Made by a program: the position numbers and the translations under genes. The notes under the pieces are model-generated. The model searched no databases, was not told where the DNA came from, and saw only the letters and a list, made by a program, of their open reading frames with translations. Shown here piece by piece: positions 18,845 through 58,112 of a DNA stretch of 64,000 bases (positions are counted from its first letter, which is position 1; each line of letters opens with the position of its first letter). The stretch is from Candidatus Colimorpha pelethequi. GTDB lineage: Bacteria > Bacteroidota > Bacteroidia > Bacteroidales > P3. The stretch spans positions 1 through 64,000 of the forward strand of contig JAGHVO010000027.1 of assembly GCA_018064245.1 (NCBI GenBank). Reading direction: 5' to 3'.

Positions 18845-18985
18845 TTCTTCAAATCTTCAATAGTGAATGATGACCTTAACCTTAACTAACTATGACTATG
18901 GCCATTCTAAATTAATGCTCAATTCTCATCTCTCAAATCAACAAATCAACAGTTCAACAAATCAACAGCCCTTCAAATCTCCAAA
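18845..18985 (+). repeat. Composite AT-rich word-repeat leader (second copy)
   Basis: This stretch holds accttaaccttaact, taactatgactatggccatt, aattctcatctctcaaatca, caaatcaacagttcaacaa (repeated) and cccttcaaatctccaaatct. It is the same succession of words as at 5768-5881. The end of it codes for the last residues of the ABC transporter on the minus strand (GMEDLEI). Confidence 0.8.
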
Positions 18986-20778
18986 TCTTCCATTCCCAAC
19001 GTGTGTGAGATCTTGTCGATGTTGAGGCTTCGGGCGCTGGCGTCGAAAATCTCCTTGTAGATACCGCCTTGGCGATAGACCTCGTCGGGGTCGCCACTCT
19101 GCTCAACATGGCCATTCTTCATTGCGAAGATTTCGTCGGCGTCGATGATTTGCGAGAGACTGTGGGAGATGATGATGACCGTGCGACCTTGCTTGATGGC
19201 GTCGAGGCTGTTCTTGATCTGCTCGGTAGCTACGGCGTCGAGCGATGCGGTGGGCTCGTCGAGGAAGATGATGGGAGGATTCTTGATGAACATACGTGCG
19301 ATGGCGATACGCTGTTGCTGACCGCCGCTGAGGAGCGTAGCCTTGGTTTCAAAACCGTTGGGAAGCGCCATCACTTGGTCGTAGATGTAGGCCTGCTTGG
19401 CGGCTTGCAGCACTTGCTCGTGGGTGGCGTCAGGATTGCCGTAGCGGATGTTCTCCTCTATGGAACCATCGAAGATATGGTTTTTCTGCAATACCAGTCC
19501 GATGTTGTCTCTAAGCCACTGTGTGTCCCAATCCTTCAGCTCTACGCCGTCAAGCGTGACGGAGCCCGATGTGGGCGAATAGAACTTGTCCAGCAGGTTG
19601 ATGACGGTGCTCTTGCCCGCTCCCGAAAGGCCTACGAAAGCGGTAATTTTGCCTGGCTTGATGTCCATGTCGATGTCGTGGAGGGCGTGGTTGCCGTTGG
19701 GATATGTGAAATCAACATCTTTGAGTACAAAATGCCCTTCGACCTTTTCGGGGTGGTATTTACCCGACTCTTCCACTTCGCCGTCGGCGTGGAGGATGTC
19801 AAAGAAGCCTTCGGCATAGATAAGGGCGTCGTTCATGTCGTCGTAGATGCGGTGTAGCTGACGAATAGGCGCGGAGACGTTGGAGAAGAGCATTACGTGG
19901 TACATGATTTTTCCGATGGTCATACCGGGGTAGCCTGAGAGTACGAGGTAGGCGGTGAGAATGATGATCAATACTGTGCCGATTTGTTCGGTGAAACTTT
20001 TCAGACCGTCGAAGAGAAAACTCAGTTTGCGAGTCTCCATCTGGTTGTCGGTGAGGCGGTTCTGAAGCTCTAGCTGTTTGTCGCCCTCGATGCGTTCACG
20101 ATTGAACGATTTGATGACGGTGATGCTCTCGATGATGTTCATGATGCCGTTCGACTTGGCCTCGCGGTTGGCGCGCATGTCCCTGCGCCAGCCTTTCAGT
20201 TTCTTGGCTTGGCGGTAGGTGATGTAGAAATAGATAGGCACGATGCAGGTCGCCACAAGTCCCACATATACGTTGGCGGCGTACATCAAGATGAGAGCGA
20301 GTATTGCACTGGTGCCCAGCGGCAGGATGTCGATGAAGAAGTTTTTTACGGTGTTAGACAGGCTCTCGACGCCACGGTCGATACGTGTTTGGAGGCGTCC
20401 CGGCTCGTTGCCGTTGCGCGTGAAGTATGCCACGCGGAAGGTGAGCATACGCTCGATTACCGACTGGGCGAGGTCGCGCGAAACGAGGATGCGCATTTTC
20501 TCACCGTAGAAACGCTGTCCGAAGGTAATGAGTGCGGCCAGCACCTCTTTGCCCAAGAGGACTATGGAGATGATAATCAAGATGCGCGCCGCTTTCGCCC
20601 ATAGGAATTGGTCGGCGTGCAAGAGGTTGTTGATGGCATCAACCGTGCGGTCAAGCACCACGGCGTTGACCTGCGCGGCGAGAGATCCGATGAATGTCAT
20701 TACGAGTGTCGCCACCACGAGCCAACGATAGGGCTTCACGAATGGCGCAATGTTTTTGAAAAGTTCTTTAAGAGACAC
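18973..20778 (-). CDS. ABC exporter, fused membrane and ATPase domains (MsbA-like)
   Basis: 601 residues. About six transmembrane helices (residues 15-310) are fused to an ATP-binding domain with Walker A GLSGAGKST (383-391), signature LSGGQQQRIAIAR near 482, Walker B IIFLDEPTASLD near 505 and the H-loop IISHS near 537. Homodimeric exporters of this type move lipids, lipopeptides or drugs out of the inner membrane. The substrate is not evident, and lipid A-core flipping is one possibility. It is probably monocistronic, with a promoter 118 nt upstream and a leader composed of word repeats. Confidence 0.92.
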   Translation of the reverse strand: MSLKELFKNIAPFVKPYRWLVVATLVMTFIGSLAAQVNAVVLDRTVDAINNLLHADQFLWAKAARILIIISIVLLGKEVLAALITFGQRFYGEKMRILVSRDLAQSVIERMLTFRVAYFTRNGNEPGRLQTRIDRGVESLSNTVKNFFIDILPLGTSAILALILMYAANVYVGLVATCIVPIYFYITYRQAKKLKGWRRDMRANREAKSNGIMNIIESITVIKSFNRERIEGDKQLELQNRLTDNQMETRKLSFLFDGLKSFTEQIGTVLIIILTAYLVLSGYPGMTIGKIMYHVMLFSNVSAPIRQLHRIYDDMNDALIYAEGFFDILHADGEVEESGKYHPEKVEGHFVLKDVDFTYPNGNHALHDIDMDIKPGKITAFVGLSGAGKSTVINLLDKFYSPTSGSVTLDGVELKDWDTQWLRDNIGLVLQKNHIFDGSIEENIRYGNPDATHEQVLQAAKQAYIYDQVMALPNGFETKATLLSGGQQQRIAIARMFIKNPPIIFLDEPTASLDAVATEQIKNSLDAIKQGRTVIIISHSLSQIIDADEIFAMKNGHVEQSGDPDEVYRQGGIYKEIFDASARSLNIDKISHTLGMEDLEI

Positions 20779-26488: not shown

Positions 26489-27769
26489 TCACACCCTTAG
26501 GCTACCTATCGGGACAACGGCTATGCCGTCGGGACGTTGATAGGCGTAGTTGCCGATGCCTGTGAGTACCATCAGAAACGAGGGCTCGGGCATACGGGTG
26601 GTGTCGATGGTTTTTGCCAGTTTCTTGAGTGTGGCGGCGCCGTTTTCAATCAGTGTGTCGCCACCAAGTTTGATTTCTACCAAGCCGTAATGTCCATTCC
26701 TAAGATGAATTACTGCGTCGCACTCCAATTTGTTGCTGTCTCGGTAGTGATAGACGGTTCCGTCAATGGCATCGGCAAAGACTCGCAAGTCTCTGACCGC
26801 CAAAGTCTCAAACAAAAATCCGAAAGTGTTCAAGTCTCTCAGTAGGTCGTTGAGTCCGATGCCCAGAGCTGCGGTGGCTATGCTGGGGTCCACAAAATAG
26901 CGAGTGTCGCTGGTGCGGATGGAAGCTTTGCTGCGCAGATTCGGATTCCAAGCCGCCATATCTTCTTCCAAAAATATGTTTTTGAGAATGTTGACATATT
27001 CGGCGATGGTCTCTTCGTTGCGGCTCTCATGCTCATTTTGCATCAAGTCGGCTTGTATGGTGGTGATGGCAATCTGACCGCCTTGGTTGCGAGCTAGGCT
27101 GCGGATAATGCGCTGCATCAGTTGTGGGTCGCGCTTCACGTCGTCAATCTTTGCCAAATCGCTGTTTATTACGCCGTCGAGGTAGGATTTGGCCACTTTG
27201 AGAGCGGGCTTTTCTTTCATCTTAAGCACGCCAGGCCATCCGCCACGGCAAGTGAGGTATGCAAGTCGTTCAATGTCGATATGTGAGGCTCCGTCGGCTG
27301 ACTTGCCGTTGAATAGCTCGGCAAGACTCACATCTCCTGTGCTGTCGCCCGATTCCCACAGGCTCATGGGACGCATCTTTAACCATGCAAAACGTCCCGT
27401 GCCGCTGTGGAAAATTTGTTTGCGGTCTTTCTCTTTGGGAGTGGCGGATCCTGTGAAGATAAACTGCCCAACCTTCTCGTCTCGATGGTCTATCTCAAAA
27501 CGGGCAGCGTCCCACAATTGTGGAACAAGTTCCCATTCGTCAATTAGCCGTGGCGTGTTTCCTTCTAACAGTCGTTGGGGATTTGTGGCACCAATTGCAA
27601 GATTTTGCTTTTTCCAAAATGGGTCGTCCATGTAGAGCTTGCTTTTGGCGTGGTGCGCTGCCGTAGTGGTCTTTCCGCACCATTTGGTGCCTTGCACCAG
27701 AACCGCACCCATGGCTTCCAATAAATCCTCCATTTGGGAGTCCGCTACTCGTGGTATATAGTCTGTCAT
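26489..27769 (-). CDS. AAA ATPase with DUF4143 domain
   Basis: 426 residues. The N-terminal ATPase carries a Walker A motif of the unusual GTKWCGKTT type (residues about 27-35), a Walker B-like stretch PRLIDEWELVPQLWD near 75 and the sensor segment QFIFTGSATP near 104. The C-terminal DUF4143 half contains an Asp...Glu-x-Lys pattern (ECDAVIHLRNGHYGLVEIKLGG), like a PD-(D/E)xK nuclease core. These proteins are common in Bacteroidetes and archaea, often in many copies; their role is unknown. Its promoter lies next to a 23-nt tandem repeat block. Confidence 0.9.
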   Translation of the reverse strand: MTDYIPRVADSQMEDLLEAMGAVLVQGTKWCGKTTTAAHHAKSKLYMDDPFWKKQNLAIGATNPQRLLEGNTPRLIDEWELVPQLWDAARFEIDHRDEKVGQFIFTGSATPKEKDRKQIFHSGTGRFAWLKMRPMSLWESGDSTGDVSLAELFNGKSADGASHIDIERLAYLTCRGGWPGVLKMKEKPALKVAKSYLDGVINSDLAKIDDVKRDPQLMQRIIRSLARNQGGQIAITTIQADLMQNEHESRNEETIAEYVNILKNIFLEEDMAAWNPNLRSKASIRTSDTRYFVDPSIATAALGIGLNDLLRDLNTFGFLFETLAVRDLRVFADAIDGTVYHYRDSNKLECDAVIHLRNGHYGLVEIKLGGDTLIENGAATLKKLAKTIDTTRMPEPSFLMVLTGIGNYAYQRPDGIAVVPIGSLRV

Positions 27770-41456: not shown

Positions 41457-42641
41457 TTACTGCTGCGTATTACCGTACTCTTTGTCAACGGTTTCGTGCG
41501 AAAGTTGAATCATATTCTGCATCACGGCGTTGATGTTGTAGGGCGTGGTAAGCGTTTTTTGTGAGCAGAAAGTGATGTCCATGATGCGTGCCACGCGTTC
41601 CAAATCACCTTCGTTGTCGTATTTGAGAGAGAAAATGTAGGAATGGCAGGTCATTCCTAAGAGCGCTTCGCGGAGGGCGCAAGCCTTATATACGATTTCG
41701 TTGAACATGTGGTCGTTCTGTACGCCGGTCTTGCATTCGATTACAAATAGGGTGTTGGCTTTGATAAAGCAGACGTCAAGTTCGTTGTTGTGCTTTTCTC
41801 CTGGACGTGCGATATGTACGCCGATGGCGATGTCTTGTGGCTTTACCGTGCGTTCGATGAGGTTATAGACATATTCCTCAAACCATCCTCCCGTGAGGTA
41901 TTCCACCTCGTCGGGCGAGATGTAGCCTTCGTTGGAAGGTGTGAAACCAATGTGTCGCAGTAGGCTGGAAAGACGGGGTGCGTTTTTGTGCTCAATGTCG
42001 CTGATGCGTGCCGCGCGGCTCATCCCTCGGTATTCGGTGCGTAAGGTGTTGATGGTTTCGTATTCTTCGGAGGATAGCTGCTTCTTTGTAAAGATGTTGA
42101 ACAGATTTTGGGTTTGCTGCGCCTTGATGATGGGCTTGTGGAAATGTTTTCGGTCGATGTCGTGCGAGAGTCCGTGTACTTGGAAATATTCGGCTAAGGT
42201 CATCCTGTAGCGGATAGGGTAGAAGATGTCGTCGTTGTCGTAGATGCTGTTGTCGAAGATGGAACTCACGATGATGTTTTCGCGGGTTTGGGTGTAGAAG
42301 AATTTGGTGTTGAACGATTCAAAGACTTGATGGACGGCCAAAGCCATGTATCGGCTGCCTCCTGCCAGATTGACGAGATAGGTGGTGTCGGAATGAAGCT
42401 GTGCTTTGAGTCTGCGACAGATGCGCTCGTAGGTGTATTCGTCTGAGTTGTATTTCAATACAATGTCGTCAATCAGATTGGGGTCGATCTTGATTAGGTT
42501 TGTGAGAAAATCAATCTTTTCGCCATCTCGCCGAGCGGATACGAAAAGAAGTCGGTCTCCGTCTTGGTAGTTTTCTTTGATGAAAAGATAGGCGGGTAGC
42601 GGATCGTTGTGGGATATGATGTTTACGAGTGTGCGGTTCAT
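41457..42641 (-). CDS. CARF-domain nuclease (Card1/Can2-like, DUF1887)
   Basis: 394 residues. The N-terminal CARF-like Rossmann domain (1-150) begins TLVNIISHNDPLPAYLFIKE and carries the ligand-loop motif NLAGGSRYMALAV (91-103). The C-terminal half is a PD-(D/E)xK nuclease: GGWFEEYVYNLIE (251-263, Glu255/Glu256), then NELDVCFIKANTLFVIECKTG with Asp289, Glu302 and Lys304. This is the layout of Card1/Can2, which are activated by cyclic tetra-adenylate to cut DNA and RNA in type III CRISPR immunity. All catalytic residues are intact. No cas gene or CRISPR array lies in the window. It sits 36 nt downstream of the HAD_SAK gene, on the same strand. Confidence 0.88.
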   Translation of the reverse strand: MNRTLVNIISHNDPLPAYLFIKENYQDGDRLLFVSARRDGEKIDFLTNLIKIDPNLIDDIVLKYNSDEYTYERICRRLKAQLHSDTTYLVNLAGGSRYMALAVHQVFESFNTKFFYTQTRENIIVSSIFDNSIYDNDDIFYPIRYRMTLAEYFQVHGLSHDIDRKHFHKPIIKAQQTQNLFNIFTKKQLSSEEYETINTLRTEYRGMSRAARISDIEHKNAPRLSSLLRHIGFTPSNEGYISPDEVEYLTGGWFEEYVYNLIERTVKPQDIAIGVHIARPGEKHNNELDVCFIKANTLFVIECKTGVQNDHMFNEIVYKACALREALLGMTCHSYIFSLKYDNEGDLERVARIMDITFCSQKTLTTPYNINAVMQNMIQLSHETVDKEYGNTQQ

Positions 42642-42677
42642 GTTTTTTTGTAATTTAATATTGATTAGGTGGTTGAG

Positions 42678-43214
42678 TTAAGAATTTAGCTTTTCGATGG
42701 CTTGCTGCGCAATTGCTGCAGTAATGCCCGATTCGGGGTCGGTTTGCAGAAAATGGCTTCGTTGTCCTGGAAGAATGTCGTTTCCGTCGTCGAGAATGAC
42801 GTATTGATTGACTTCTGGATGTTGGTTGAGGAAGGCTTGGATTTCCCTGCCTCGCATATTGAAAATGCCAAAAGTGTGGTCGGGCATGTCATCCAGACTA
42901 TCTAATTGTATGGCGGAAAAAAGATTGTCATCGACGTGCAAGGGCGTGATGTCCACCACTTCGCCGGGCATCTCGCGCTCTTTCCAAAGTTGTTGCATTG
43001 CTTCAAGTCCTTCGTATCGCCACGAGGATGAAATCACGATTGCGGCTTGTGTCGCTTCGACAATCGTTCTCAGTTGTTCCACGGCGTCGGGCGAGAATTT
43101 GGTCCCGAACTCATCTTCCGCAGGCAGCCCGTTCGTTACGAGGTCGTCGTGGTAACTGTCGGTGTTGAGTACGCCGTCGAAGTCCAAAAAGATACATTTT
43201 TCGAGTTTTGCCAT
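42678..43214 (-). CDS. HAD-superfamily phosphatase of the Swiss-Army-Knife RNA-repair type (HAD_SAK)
   Basis: 178 residues from ATG 43214; the frame could extend seven codons upstream, but those overlap the -7 box. HAD motif I is FLDFDGVLN (Asp11, Asp13), motif II is IVISSSWR (Ser62-64) and motif IV is VILDDGND (Asp142, Asp143, Asp146). The C-terminal RGREIQAFLNQHPEVNQYVILDD is characteristic of the family first described as the HAD domain of Swiss-Army-Knife RNA repair proteins. The expected activity is removal of a phosphate, possibly from RNA or nucleotide ends. It is the upstream partner of the CARF nuclease in a two-gene operon. Confidence 0.85.
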   Translation of the reverse strand: MAKLEKCIFLDFDGVLNTDSYHDDLVTNGLPAEDEFGTKFSPDAVEQLRTIVEATQAAIVISSSWRYEGLEAMQQLWKEREMPGEVVDITPLHVDDNLFSAIQLDSLDDMPDHTFGIFNMRGREIQAFLNQHPEVNQYVILDDGNDILPGQRSHFLQTDPESGITAAIAQQAIEKLNS

Positions 43215-43222
43215 AACTTTTG

Positions 43223-43230
43223 CAAAAATA
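43223..43230 (-). promoter_or_regulatory. -7 box (TATTTTTG) of the HAD_SAK/CARF-nuclease operon
   Basis: Minus-strand TATTTTTGCAAAAGTTATG. By SRP RNA geometry the leader is only about 3 nt. No good -33 element is seen upstream, so the promoter may be weak or activator-dependent. Confidence 0.5.
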
Positions 43231-43367
43231 CTCATTTTTCCTGAATGATGAATTGCGGATGGCGGGAAGTGATTTGCGAATATAGAAAAGTGAATGATAA
43301 ACGGACGCTAAAAATCGCTGATAATAAACCGCCTAAACAATGGCATTCCAAGAAAAGGGAAAAAGAT

Positions 43368-55835: not shown

Positions 55836-58112
55836 ATGAAAAAAATAGTATTCCTTTGTGCTTTTTTTGCCTTGACGGTTTCTTTTACAATGGCAAAACC
55901 CGTTGATAGACAGACTGCTATTCGTGTCGCTCGTAATTTGTGGACTCAAGTGGCGAAGTCTCCTTGCCAACTTACGGATATTAGTCTTGAGATGGGTTAT
56001 GAGTATCTTTATATCTTTGCCAATATTGATGGCGCGGGTTTTGTGATTCTTCCTGCCGACGATTGCGCAACTCCAATTTTGGGCTATTCAACTGAAAATC
56101 AGTTTTCTTTGGATAATATGCCAATCCATGTGGACTCTTGGCTGCGAACTTATAACGATGAGGTTGCCCAACTGGTTGCCTTGGGCGCCAAGCCCGACAA
56201 ATCGGTTGCCGATGAATGGTATCGCTTGCTTAACAATATTCCTTTGGTTGACCAGTCAAAGGCTGCTGTGGCACCGTTGCTTACCACTACTTGGAATCAG
56301 GAACCCTATTACAACAGTCTTTGTCCGCTCTACGACGGTGTGCATCACTCCGTTACGGGTTGTACGGCTACCGCTACCGCTCAGGTAATGAAATATTGGA
56401 ACTATCCCATTACGGGTTTGGGCTCGCGCACTTATGTCGATACTTTGTCTGAAATCAATGTATTTGATACTCTTACGGCCGATTTTGGTGCTACCACCTA
56501 CGACTGGGAGCATATGCCAAATTCGTTGAATCAGTATAGTTCCGATACGGAGGTGCTGGCTGTCGCTACGTTGATGCTCCATGTCGGCATCGCTGTTGAT
56601 ATGGACTATGGCAGCTCCAGTGGTGCCTATACTACTTCGTTTGGATTTTTTGACTGGGCGGCTTCCGAAAATGCGCTCAAATATTATTTCAAATACAATT
56701 CTGGGTTGCGTGGCGTAGAAAAGAATCATGTCAGCGATGACGAATGGCGCCAGCTGCTCAAAGATGACCTCAATGCGGGTCGTCCGATCATCTATTCTGG
56801 AGAGGATCGCTCGGGTGGACATGCCTTTGTGTGCGATGGCTACAATGCTTTGAGCCGTTTCCATTTCAATTGGGGCTGGGGTGGCACTTATGATGGCTAT
56901 TATGCGATGGGCAGCCTCAATCCTGGCTATTCGTTCAATTATAATAATACTGCTATTCTCGGAATCTATCCTGATACGGTTCTACGTTCCGATGCCATTC
57001 ATGTCGAGGCTTTGTCGTCCGACACTACAATGGGTGTTGTGGTAGGTGGCGGCGATTACATGCCTTATCAAGATACGGTAACGCTGATTGCTGATGCCAA
57101 GGAGGGTTGTCGTTTCCAACGTTGGAGCGACTACAACATCTACACTCCTCGCACGTTCATGCCCAATTCCGACCATTCGTTGACGGCGCAGTTTGAACAG
57201 CTTGTAGCCGACTCGGTGACCTATTCGTTCAACCTTTACTTCTCTCGTGTCTCGAAGGATAAATATTACGATTATTTTGGCATTCGTATTCCTGCCGCTT
57301 CTATGGCTTCCTGCCGTAATCTTTCGAGTGTGCAGATGTACGACGGTTTGGTGGGTTCCTATCAGCTTTATGTATATGAAGGTGGTGCACAGGCACCTCA
57401 GACGCTCCTCTATACGCAACCTTTCGCTACGCGCAAGGCTTTGAAATGGATTTCTGTCGTTTTGGATTCGGTGGTTCCTGTCGACGCTTCAAAACCTTTG
57501 TGGGTGGTGGTGCGTTCGTTGGACTCCAATTCCTGGGCTCCGGTTTCCTATTTCTCAGGAAACTACGATGGTACTTGGTATAGTTTCGACAGCGTCAATT
57601 GGCAGCACGAGTGGGGCAACCATCCTTACAGCTGGATGCTCCGCGCTCTTTTCTCTCCGCGTGACCCATATACCTTTAATGTAGAGGCTGTTTCGGACAG
57701 TCTTGGCACCGTTTCGGGTGGTGGGGAGTTTCTTGAAGGCGACACTGCCACTCTTACTGCCGTTGCCGTCGAGGGCTATCGTTTTGACCATTGGAGCAAT
57801 GGAAACACGGAAAATCCTTTGACTTTTGAGGTGCGTGGCGACACCACGCTGACGGCTTATTTTGTTGAGGATATTGCCATCAATAGTGTAGAAAATATCA
57901 AACTTTTCATCCATCCCAATCCGTCCAGTAGCCTTGTCGTCATCGAAGGCGTAAAAGTACTTCGTGTGGATGTGATCGACGTTGTAGGACGTATTGTGGC
58001 GCAGTTCAACGGCACCAATACCCTCAATCTGGGAATGCTTCCCCCCGCCATCTACACCCTCCGCATCTTCACTCCCGAAGGCAAGGTGATAGGCAAGGTG
58101 GTGAAAAGATGA
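55836..58112 (+). CDS. C10 family cysteine protease with InlB-type repeats and T9SS sorting domain
   Basis: 758 residues. A signal peptide is followed by a Spi-like inhibitory propeptide (about 20-130) and a C10 (streptopain/interpain) peptidase domain. The catalytic Cys176 lies in TGCTATATAQVMKYW, His329 in GGHAFVCDGY, and the motif HFNWGWGG follows. Two divergent InlB B-like modules flank an Ig-like region: FQRWSDYN ... SLTAQFE near 430, and FDHWSNGNTENPLTFEV ... TLTAYF near 655. The C-terminus is a type A sorting domain (FIHPNPSSSLVVIEG ... GKVIGKVVKR). It is a secreted or surface protease, probably activated by removal of the propeptide. Its substrate is unknown. Confidence 0.93.
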   Translation: MKKIVFLCAFFALTVSFTMAKPVDRQTAIRVARNLWTQVAKSPCQLTDISLEMGYEYLYIFANIDGAGFVILPADDCATPILGYSTENQFSLDNMPIHVDSWLRTYNDEVAQLVALGAKPDKSVADEWYRLLNNIPLVDQSKAAVAPLLTTTWNQEPYYNSLCPLYDGVHHSVTGCTATATAQVMKYWNYPITGLGSRTYVDTLSEINVFDTLTADFGATTYDWEHMPNSLNQYSSDTEVLAVATLMLHVGIAVDMDYGSSSGAYTTSFGFFDWAASENALKYYFKYNSGLRGVEKNHVSDDEWRQLLKDDLNAGRPIIYSGEDRSGGHAFVCDGYNALSRFHFNWGWGGTYDGYYAMGSLNPGYSFNYNNTAILGIYPDTVLRSDAIHVEALSSDTTMGVVVGGGDYMPYQDTVTLIADAKEGCRFQRWSDYNIYTPRTFMPNSDHSLTAQFEQLVADSVTYSFNLYFSRVSKDKYYDYFGIRIPAASMASCRNLSSVQMYDGLVGSYQLYVYEGGAQAPQTLLYTQPFATRKALKWISVVLDSVVPVDASKPLWVVVRSLDSNSWAPVSYFSGNYDGTWYSFDSVNWQHEWGNHPYSWMLRALFSPRDPYTFNVEAVSDSLGTVSGGGEFLEGDTATLTAVAVEGYRFDHWSNGNTENPLTFEVRGDTTLTAYFVEDIAINSVENIKLFIHPNPSSSLVVIEGVKVLRVDVIDVVGRIVAQFNGTNTLNLGMLPPAIYTLRIFTPEGKVIGKVVKR

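Follow-up and report, generated by a model that had tools for sequence, protein, structure and literature searches.

The locus described here raises the question of what a CARF nuclease does in a genome in which no type III CRISPR system was found, and whether the phosphatase-like gene beside it is a working partner. Type III CRISPR CARF effectors sense cyclic oligoadenylate made by Cas10. The window, a stretch of 64,000 nucleotides from Candidatus Colimorpha pelethequi, carries both genes on the same strand; a sequence-only reading had taken them to be a self-contained module. The features of the locus are collected in Table 1.

Table 1. Features of the nuclease locus (positions in the window)
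Feature	Position	Strand	Basis
HAD_SAK_2 phosphatase-like protein	42678..43214 (ORF open from 43235)	(-)	PF18143 E 6.6e-28
36-nt gap, HAD stop to nuclease start	42642..42677	(-)	Sequence
CARF nuclease ORF, Card1/Can2-family, 394 aa	41457..42641	(-)	PF23400, PF09002, PADLOC, PDB relatives
CARF domain, about residues 5-152	in 41457..42641	(-)	
PD-(D/E)xK nuclease domain, about residues 245-344	in 41457..42641	(-)	
Pocket loop Ser10, His11 (Can2 Ser19 position)	42609..42614	(-)	Alignments
CARF ligand-pocket motif NLAGGSRYMALAV, residues 91-103	42333..42371	(-)	Alignments; Can2 contacts in the available part of PMC7969007
Nuclease catalytic Asp289, Glu302, Lys304 (NELDV ... VIECKT)	41730..41777	(-)	Invariant in alignment

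The nuclease ORF scores above cut-off with two Pfam profiles, PF23400 (CARF_Card1, E 1.4e-13) and PF09002 (Card1_endonuc, E 4.4e-21), and matches the PADLOC model CARF4--CARF_PDDEXK at E 4.6e-59. Its closest solved relatives by sequence are Card1 (6wxw, E 2.7e-16), Can2 (7bdv) and VC1899 (1xmx). Asp289, Glu302 and Lys304 are unchanged across all 37 aligned sequences, and also in 36/36 tabulated members of the clade described below. Pfam, PADLOC and the alignments bear out the earlier description of a full-length CARF/PD-(D/E)xK nuclease with these three residues and the motif NLAGGSRYMALAV; by its sequence, the protein is a full-length member of the Card1/Can2 (DUF1887) family with intact catalytic residues. 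An AlphaFold2 model of the nuclease, built from a 5-row alignment, is poor (mean pLDDT 60), and VIA-align was run on this low-confidence model.

The host genome is a 2.38-Mb draft in 80 contigs and is 95.4% complete. Whole-genome profile searches of this draft gave no match to Csm1 (TIGR02578), the Cas10 palm (PF22335), RAMPs (PF03787), mCpol (PF18182) or SMODS (PF18144). In the window, part of the ORFs were scanned (8 around the locus with Pfam, 10 with PADLOC and 10 with Pfam; one PADLOC-scanned ORF is also in the locus Pfam set), and none of these is a cas gene; a simple k-mer scan found no CRISPR-like array. The claim that the 64 kb hold neither cas genes nor an array stands for the ORFs and the k-mer scan covered here. 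A type III locus elsewhere in the genome, named in advance as a finding that would count against the sequence-only reading, was not found with Csm1, Cas10 and RAMP profiles. The orphan status of the nuclease holds on these searches and is stronger than had been claimed, because Csm1, Cas10, RAMP, mCpol and SMODS are unmatched genome-wide. With Csm1, Cas10 palm and RAMPs unmatched in the draft, the host protein does not show the linkage to a type III locus that would be expected of a cA4-activated effector.

Three other genes of the window were noted. The ORF at 18973-20778 has a PADLOC mad3 match (E 5e-32) in which the best stretch covers residues 466-557 only, as well as weaker ATPase-type matches; it is not a cas gene. 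The ORF at 55836-58112 encodes a C10 family peptidase that carries both an inhibitor I69 propeptide and InlB-type repeats, and the one at 26489-27769 an AAA_14/DUF4143 ATPase.

The nuclease gene is found in 32 of 120 genomes of the genus, at 33 loci, its products being 48-54% identical to the window protein; of three public records with genus relatives (L002-L004), two come from sheep rectum and yak rumen. The family set (190 genomes) contains three further carriers from a second genus. An order sample of 392 genomes, restricted to completeness of 90 or more, contains four further carriers from two other families (G484, G363, G297 and G541). The clade comprises 40 loci in 39 genomes, four genera and three families. 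It is monophyletic with a support of 0.90 (36 tips); in another tree, the clade side of the split receives 0.83 and the type III side 1.0. When PDB sequences are included and the tree is rooted on VC1899, the clade is nested among Card1 proteins from type III loci (support 0.74). The trees omit L118, in which the reading frame ends after 71 codons, the partial sequences L121 (which has masked bases) and L006, and the distant, longer Treponema proteins L007 and L008. The clade has its relatives among type III-associated Card1 proteins and apparently descends from them.

In clade pairs that are more than 80% identical and have a defined value, dN/dS is 0.044-0.265, several pairs having saturated dS. 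Values of at most 0.27 in close pairs argue for purifying selection rather than decay. Carriage on mobile elements was considered and rejected; viral contigs, plasmids and phages gave no match to the clade gene. CARF homologues are abundant outside CRISPR-Cas according to the part of PMC12669027 that was available; orphan CARF proteins as such are therefore already known. No published description of the clade was found in the literature searched, which was represented for some papers by parts only. Orphans of this family are also known (VC1899); what appears to be new is an orphan Card1/Can2 clade that is under selection and has a shifted pocket.

The start given earlier for the HAD_SAK gene, 43214, is an internal ATG of ORF 42678-43235(-). 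It may be a better start than 43235, because homologues at 17 loci align from residue 3 to 12; in 14/17 the alignment begins at residue 8 or later. The sequence includes DFDGV, which we take to be HAD motif I. The nuclease gene does lie 36 nt downstream on the same strand, as had been stated, and co-transcription is possible at the window locus; the pair is not conserved. The window HAD and seven homologues were used as tblastn queries against the flanks of the clade loci (3.8-19.9 kb each, 607,698 bases in total, some short where contigs end). At the other 39 loci these flanks contain no credible HAD match; the only match spans 23 residues at E 0.002. The neighbour is thus not conserved, an outcome which had been named beforehand as refuting the module, and the proposal of a self-contained nuclease-phosphatase system is not borne out.

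HAD homologues occur in 17/120 genus genomes. Thirteen of these 17 also have the nuclease, in every case except the window on another contig. The HAD gene is commoner in genomes that have the nuclease (13/32) than in those that do not (4/88; Fisher p 4.5e-6); shared ancestry is likely to account for this co-occurrence, because 11 of the 13 co-carriers belong to a single sub-lineage of 14 genomes in the nuclease tree. HAD_SAK as a conserved partner was rejected, since the pairing is seen in one genome only; from these comparisons, the gene looks like a chance neighbour in one species. For annotators, a phosphatase beside a CARF nuclease is no evidence of a module. At 9/17 genus loci, HAD_SAK_2 homologues adjoin a gene with an RNB-domain (RNase R-like) N-terminal string (L080, L082, L083, L085, L086, L088, L089, L090 and L095; Pfam was applied to two). 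For an RNA-end phosphatase, an RNB-type gene makes better functional sense as a neighbour than a CARF nuclease does.

Other neighbours were compared across the clade. With families joined at E 1e-4 and half coverage, none adjoins the clade gene directly in more than one of its settings; the families that settings have in common are broad ATPase types and others, and their distances vary. A secreted-type protein upstream in many genus loci, presumably of the gliding-motility type, was rejected as a cis partner as it is confined to one syntenic setting. Genes that cluster with a broad AAA family lie close to some type III loci and, in L156, next to the clade gene.

Cas10 is matched in 8/39 clade genomes (7/35 in the family set, 1/4 outside it) and unmatched in the other 31. 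In tests that ignore kinship and genome size, clade genomes have it more often than the others: within the genus the counts are 7/32 vs 1/88 (Fisher p 0.0004), among the good-quality genomes 5/18 vs 0/44 (p 0.001), and across the family 7/35 vs 8/155 (p 0.009). The PF22335 model may err in both directions, missing Cas10 or calling it falsely (E. coli is positive among 14 controls), and the genomes surveyed are mostly drafts. RAMPs confirm 7/8 genus Cas10 hits; the eighth, in G111, has a Cas5_IIId match nearby.

Every one of the eight family-set genomes with a match of 40% identity or less has Cas10, and in seven the two lie no more than about 7 kb apart; these genomes provide nine places, as G132 has two. 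Among ten type III-linked loci, nine have Cas10 on the same contig, and a simple scan flags CRISPR-like arrays at nine (L005 being the exception). Cas10 is present in the flanks of 0/39 clade loci. Repeats flagged at two of these 39, L056 and L058, were rejected as arrays; the first is a tandem repeat, the second a degenerate repeat of coding type. A Csx20-like gene is found at 10/10 type III-linked relatives vs 0/39 clade loci (p 1e-10, indicative only as the loci are related). It was called at one locus by NCBIfam (E 2.5e-6, 27.9 bits vs a curated cut-off of 70) and at the other nine by tblastn similarity. Of the 11 comparison loci, L162 is a 3.6-kb contig whose genome gave no Cas10 match, and for L047 Cas10 sits on a different contig of the genome; L162 was omitted from the Csx20 test, leaving ten loci. 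Csx20 is listed as a cA4-specific ring nuclease (PMC13148439).

A nuclease match is found in 27 of the 392 order-sample genomes. Cas10 was tested in 25 of these, the host genome itself and G095 having been tested earlier; 14 are positive and 11 negative, and in 8 of the 11 negatives the relatives fall outside the clade. The order has other Card1-like genes in genomes that lack a Cas10 match, so orphan status is not unique to the clade. Among these non-clade loci, L164-L166 keep a Csx20-like neighbour. L165:8602-9645 and L166:8752-9804 are Card1-like genes adjoining the Csx20-like gene in genomes without a Cas10 palm match, and L165 also has a Csx1 gene nearby; these two are possible CRISPR remnants, or their Cas10 was missed. 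L169:9187-10317 and L170:8789-9907 belong to another solitary CARF4 family, which has a NISEGTK or HLSEGTK pocket and no Cas10 match. L167, on a 9-kb contig, belongs to neither group; it has Asp at the Ser position. For annotators, a CARF-nuclease match is no evidence of type III CRISPR.

Alternative cyclases were rejected. The mCpol matches all fall within Cas10 frames, in G001 and G061, and SMODS is matched in 4/120 genomes, just one of which (G060) has the nuclease; neither explains the clade. Effector-type genes were noted in two Cas10-bearing genomes. In G541, L160:5602-7626 combines a weak Csm6/Csx14-type N-terminal match with an adenosine deaminase C-terminus, just upstream of the type III-linked Card1; we take this gene to be Cad1-like. 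The Cas10 locus of G009 (L109:4226-6437) has CorA and DHH_CorA genes, which we assume to be a SAM-AMP type of effector; no CARF effector was recognised in the stretch examined.

In Can2, the cA4 contacts given in the available part of PMC7969007 are Ser19, Asp20, His21, Thr42, Lys99, Tyr118 and Ser121; Ser19, Thr42, Lys99 and Tyr118 are common to Can1 and Can2. Comparison of the pocket with these residues, which had been proposed as a check, gives a divided result. The window protein is identical at two of the four shared contacts (Ser10 and Tyr116), while Ala36 and Arg97 differ. The Lys99 position is Arg in 40/40 clade members vs Lys in 11/11 comparison proteins; Tyr116 is kept in 40/40 and is also Tyr in 11/11. 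At the Ser19 position, which was placed via Card1 and VC1899 (the Can2 alignment begins at residue 35), Asp predominates in the clade (34 members), Thr is seen in 4 and Ser in 2, namely the window protein and L159, the orphan copy of G541; the comparison set has Ser in 11/11. The window protein's Ser10 therefore matches the type III set, unlike the 34/40 members with Asp. The Thr42 position is Thr in 24 members, Ala in 11 and other residues in 5. The clade pocket also has Ala or Ser for the Thr near the Lys99 position and one extra residue in the first pocket loop. Residues 91, 92, 94, 95, 116 and 122 are invariant or nearly so. Positions 93, 97, 116 and 122 do not distinguish clade loci of genomes with Cas10 (8) from those of genomes without (32); the other four counted pocket positions vary in both groups. 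As judged from these alignments, the clade has a coherent, shifted CARF pocket with Arg for the phosphate-contacting Lys, usually Asp for Ser, and Tyr kept. What is conserved appears to be a CARF nuclease of a gut-type bacterium with an altered sensor pocket.

We consider it somewhat more probable than the alternatives taken together that the nuclease is a single-gene, CRISPR-independent member of the Card1/Can2 family. It is probably a stand-alone, ligand-gated nuclease, and its signal is unlikely to come from Cas10 in this host. By analogy with Card1 and Can2, the protein would act as a dimer with a small ligand bound where its two CARF domains meet, and binding would switch the nuclease domains to cutting DNA and/or RNA. 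The ligand would not be Cas10-made cA4 but another nucleotide or RNA-end signal, from the cell or from an infecting phage, and the outcome would be growth arrest or nucleic-acid damage. An RNA-end signal is a reasonable first guess because the CARF domain of RtcR reads tRNA halves with a cyclic phosphate (PMC7790460, in part). A more far-reaching version, which we put forward only tentatively, is that the clade left type III CRISPR and its pocket changed (Lys-to-Arg, plus Ser-to-Asp in most members) for a different endogenous or phage signal, such as an RNA end or a non-Cas10 oligonucleotide, making it a one-gene stress or anti-phage switch; the same changes would have arisen independently in VC1899 and so mark a general route.

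It is unlikely, on balance, that the nuclease still answers cyclic oligoadenylate in trans, from type III systems that come and go or from an undetected cyclase. Such a role would fit the enrichment of Cas10 in clade genomes, and the pocket is compatible with cA4 binding: Lys-to-Arg keeps the positive charge at 97, Tyr116 is kept and the window protein retains Ser10. However, 31/39 clade genomes have no Cas10 match, and 7/8 Cas10-positive ones have an effector gene of their own. This is a Card1-type paralogue in G001, G061, G073 and G541, a Csx1-type TIGR02221 gene in G016 and, together with another CARF_PDDEXK gene, in G116, and CorA plus DHH in G009; in G040, the 4.9-kb contig examined has no effector. 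In addition, positions 93, 97 and 116 are alike whatever the Cas10 status, and the Csx20-like neighbour is absent from clade flanks. The four genomes with both an orphan clade gene and a type III-linked paralogue (G001, G061, G073 and G541) provide matched pairs for the ligand question.

Conversion to a ligand-independent nuclease with a housekeeping task in repair or recombination, the CARF domain being now structural, seems improbable. The clade gene does sit in chromosomal settings among apparent housekeeping genes, which we have named as such mostly from sequence. VC1899 offers a precedent, as it has weak RNase activity and is not activated or regulated by cA4 (PMC7969007, in part). Against this stand the near-invariant pocket residues 91, 92, 94, 95, 116 and 122, which are unlike a domain freed of ligand binding, and the presence of a nuclease match in only 32/120 genus genomes. 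There is very little to recommend the pair of nuclease and HAD phosphatase as sensor and repair or signal-removal enzyme; the 36-nt spacing on one strand speaks for it, but the adjacency is not found at the other 39 clade loci and HAD homologues sit elsewhere, beside an RNB-type gene at 9/17 loci. A decaying relic detached from CRISPR is just as hard to credit. This is the published view of VC1899 (PMC7969007, in part), but in the clade the catalytic residues are invariant, three families are spanned, and relaxed selection, expected of a relic, is not seen in the pairs measured (dN/dS at most 0.27 where defined).

The preferred reading, a stand-alone nuclease of one gene, can be set against several known systems. 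Chp effectors also link CARF to a HAD phosphatase domain; they carry HAD, four transmembrane helices and CARF in one chain and belong to type III-A (PMC12715507, in part), whereas the window has two separate genes with no conserved link, and the HADs are likened here by description. RtcR likewise uses a CARF domain outside CRISPR, binding 5' tRNA halves that end in cyclic phosphate (PMC7790460, in part); it is a sigma54-type activator, not a nuclease, and the likeness is one of described function, not of pocket. Card1 of Treponema succinifaciens (6wxw, 6wxx, 6xl1), the best PDB sequence match of the window protein, shares the CARF plus PD-(D/E)xK architecture, the pocket framework and the catalytic Asp/Glu/Lys. 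It differs in having NITGGTK and Ser in the pocket, where the window protein has NLAGGSR; it is described as a type III effector serving a type III system (PMC9704534, in part), and none was found in the window genome. Can2 (Sulfobacillus 7bdv and others) is of the same family, and its Tyr118 corresponds to Tyr116 of the window protein; Lys99 and Thr42 are replaced by Arg97 and Ala36, and no CRISPR is linked here.

VC1899 of Vibrio cholerae (1xmx) is, like the clade, an orphan without type III. It has Asp9, Asp34, Arg96 and Val115 at the four contact positions (PMC7969007, in part). Arg at the Lys99 position is common to VC1899 and the whole clade, and Asp at the Ser19 position to VC1899 and 34/40 clade members, the window protein not among them; VC1899 differs in having Asp34 where Can2 has Thr42 and Val115 where Can2 has Tyr118; the clade keeps Tyr. 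VC1899 lies far from the clade in the tree rooted on it, which suggests that the two left CRISPR independently. It is the one described orphan of the family and was judged possibly degenerate in that source; the clade, by its dN/dS values, appears to be under selection and carries a diagnostic pocket.
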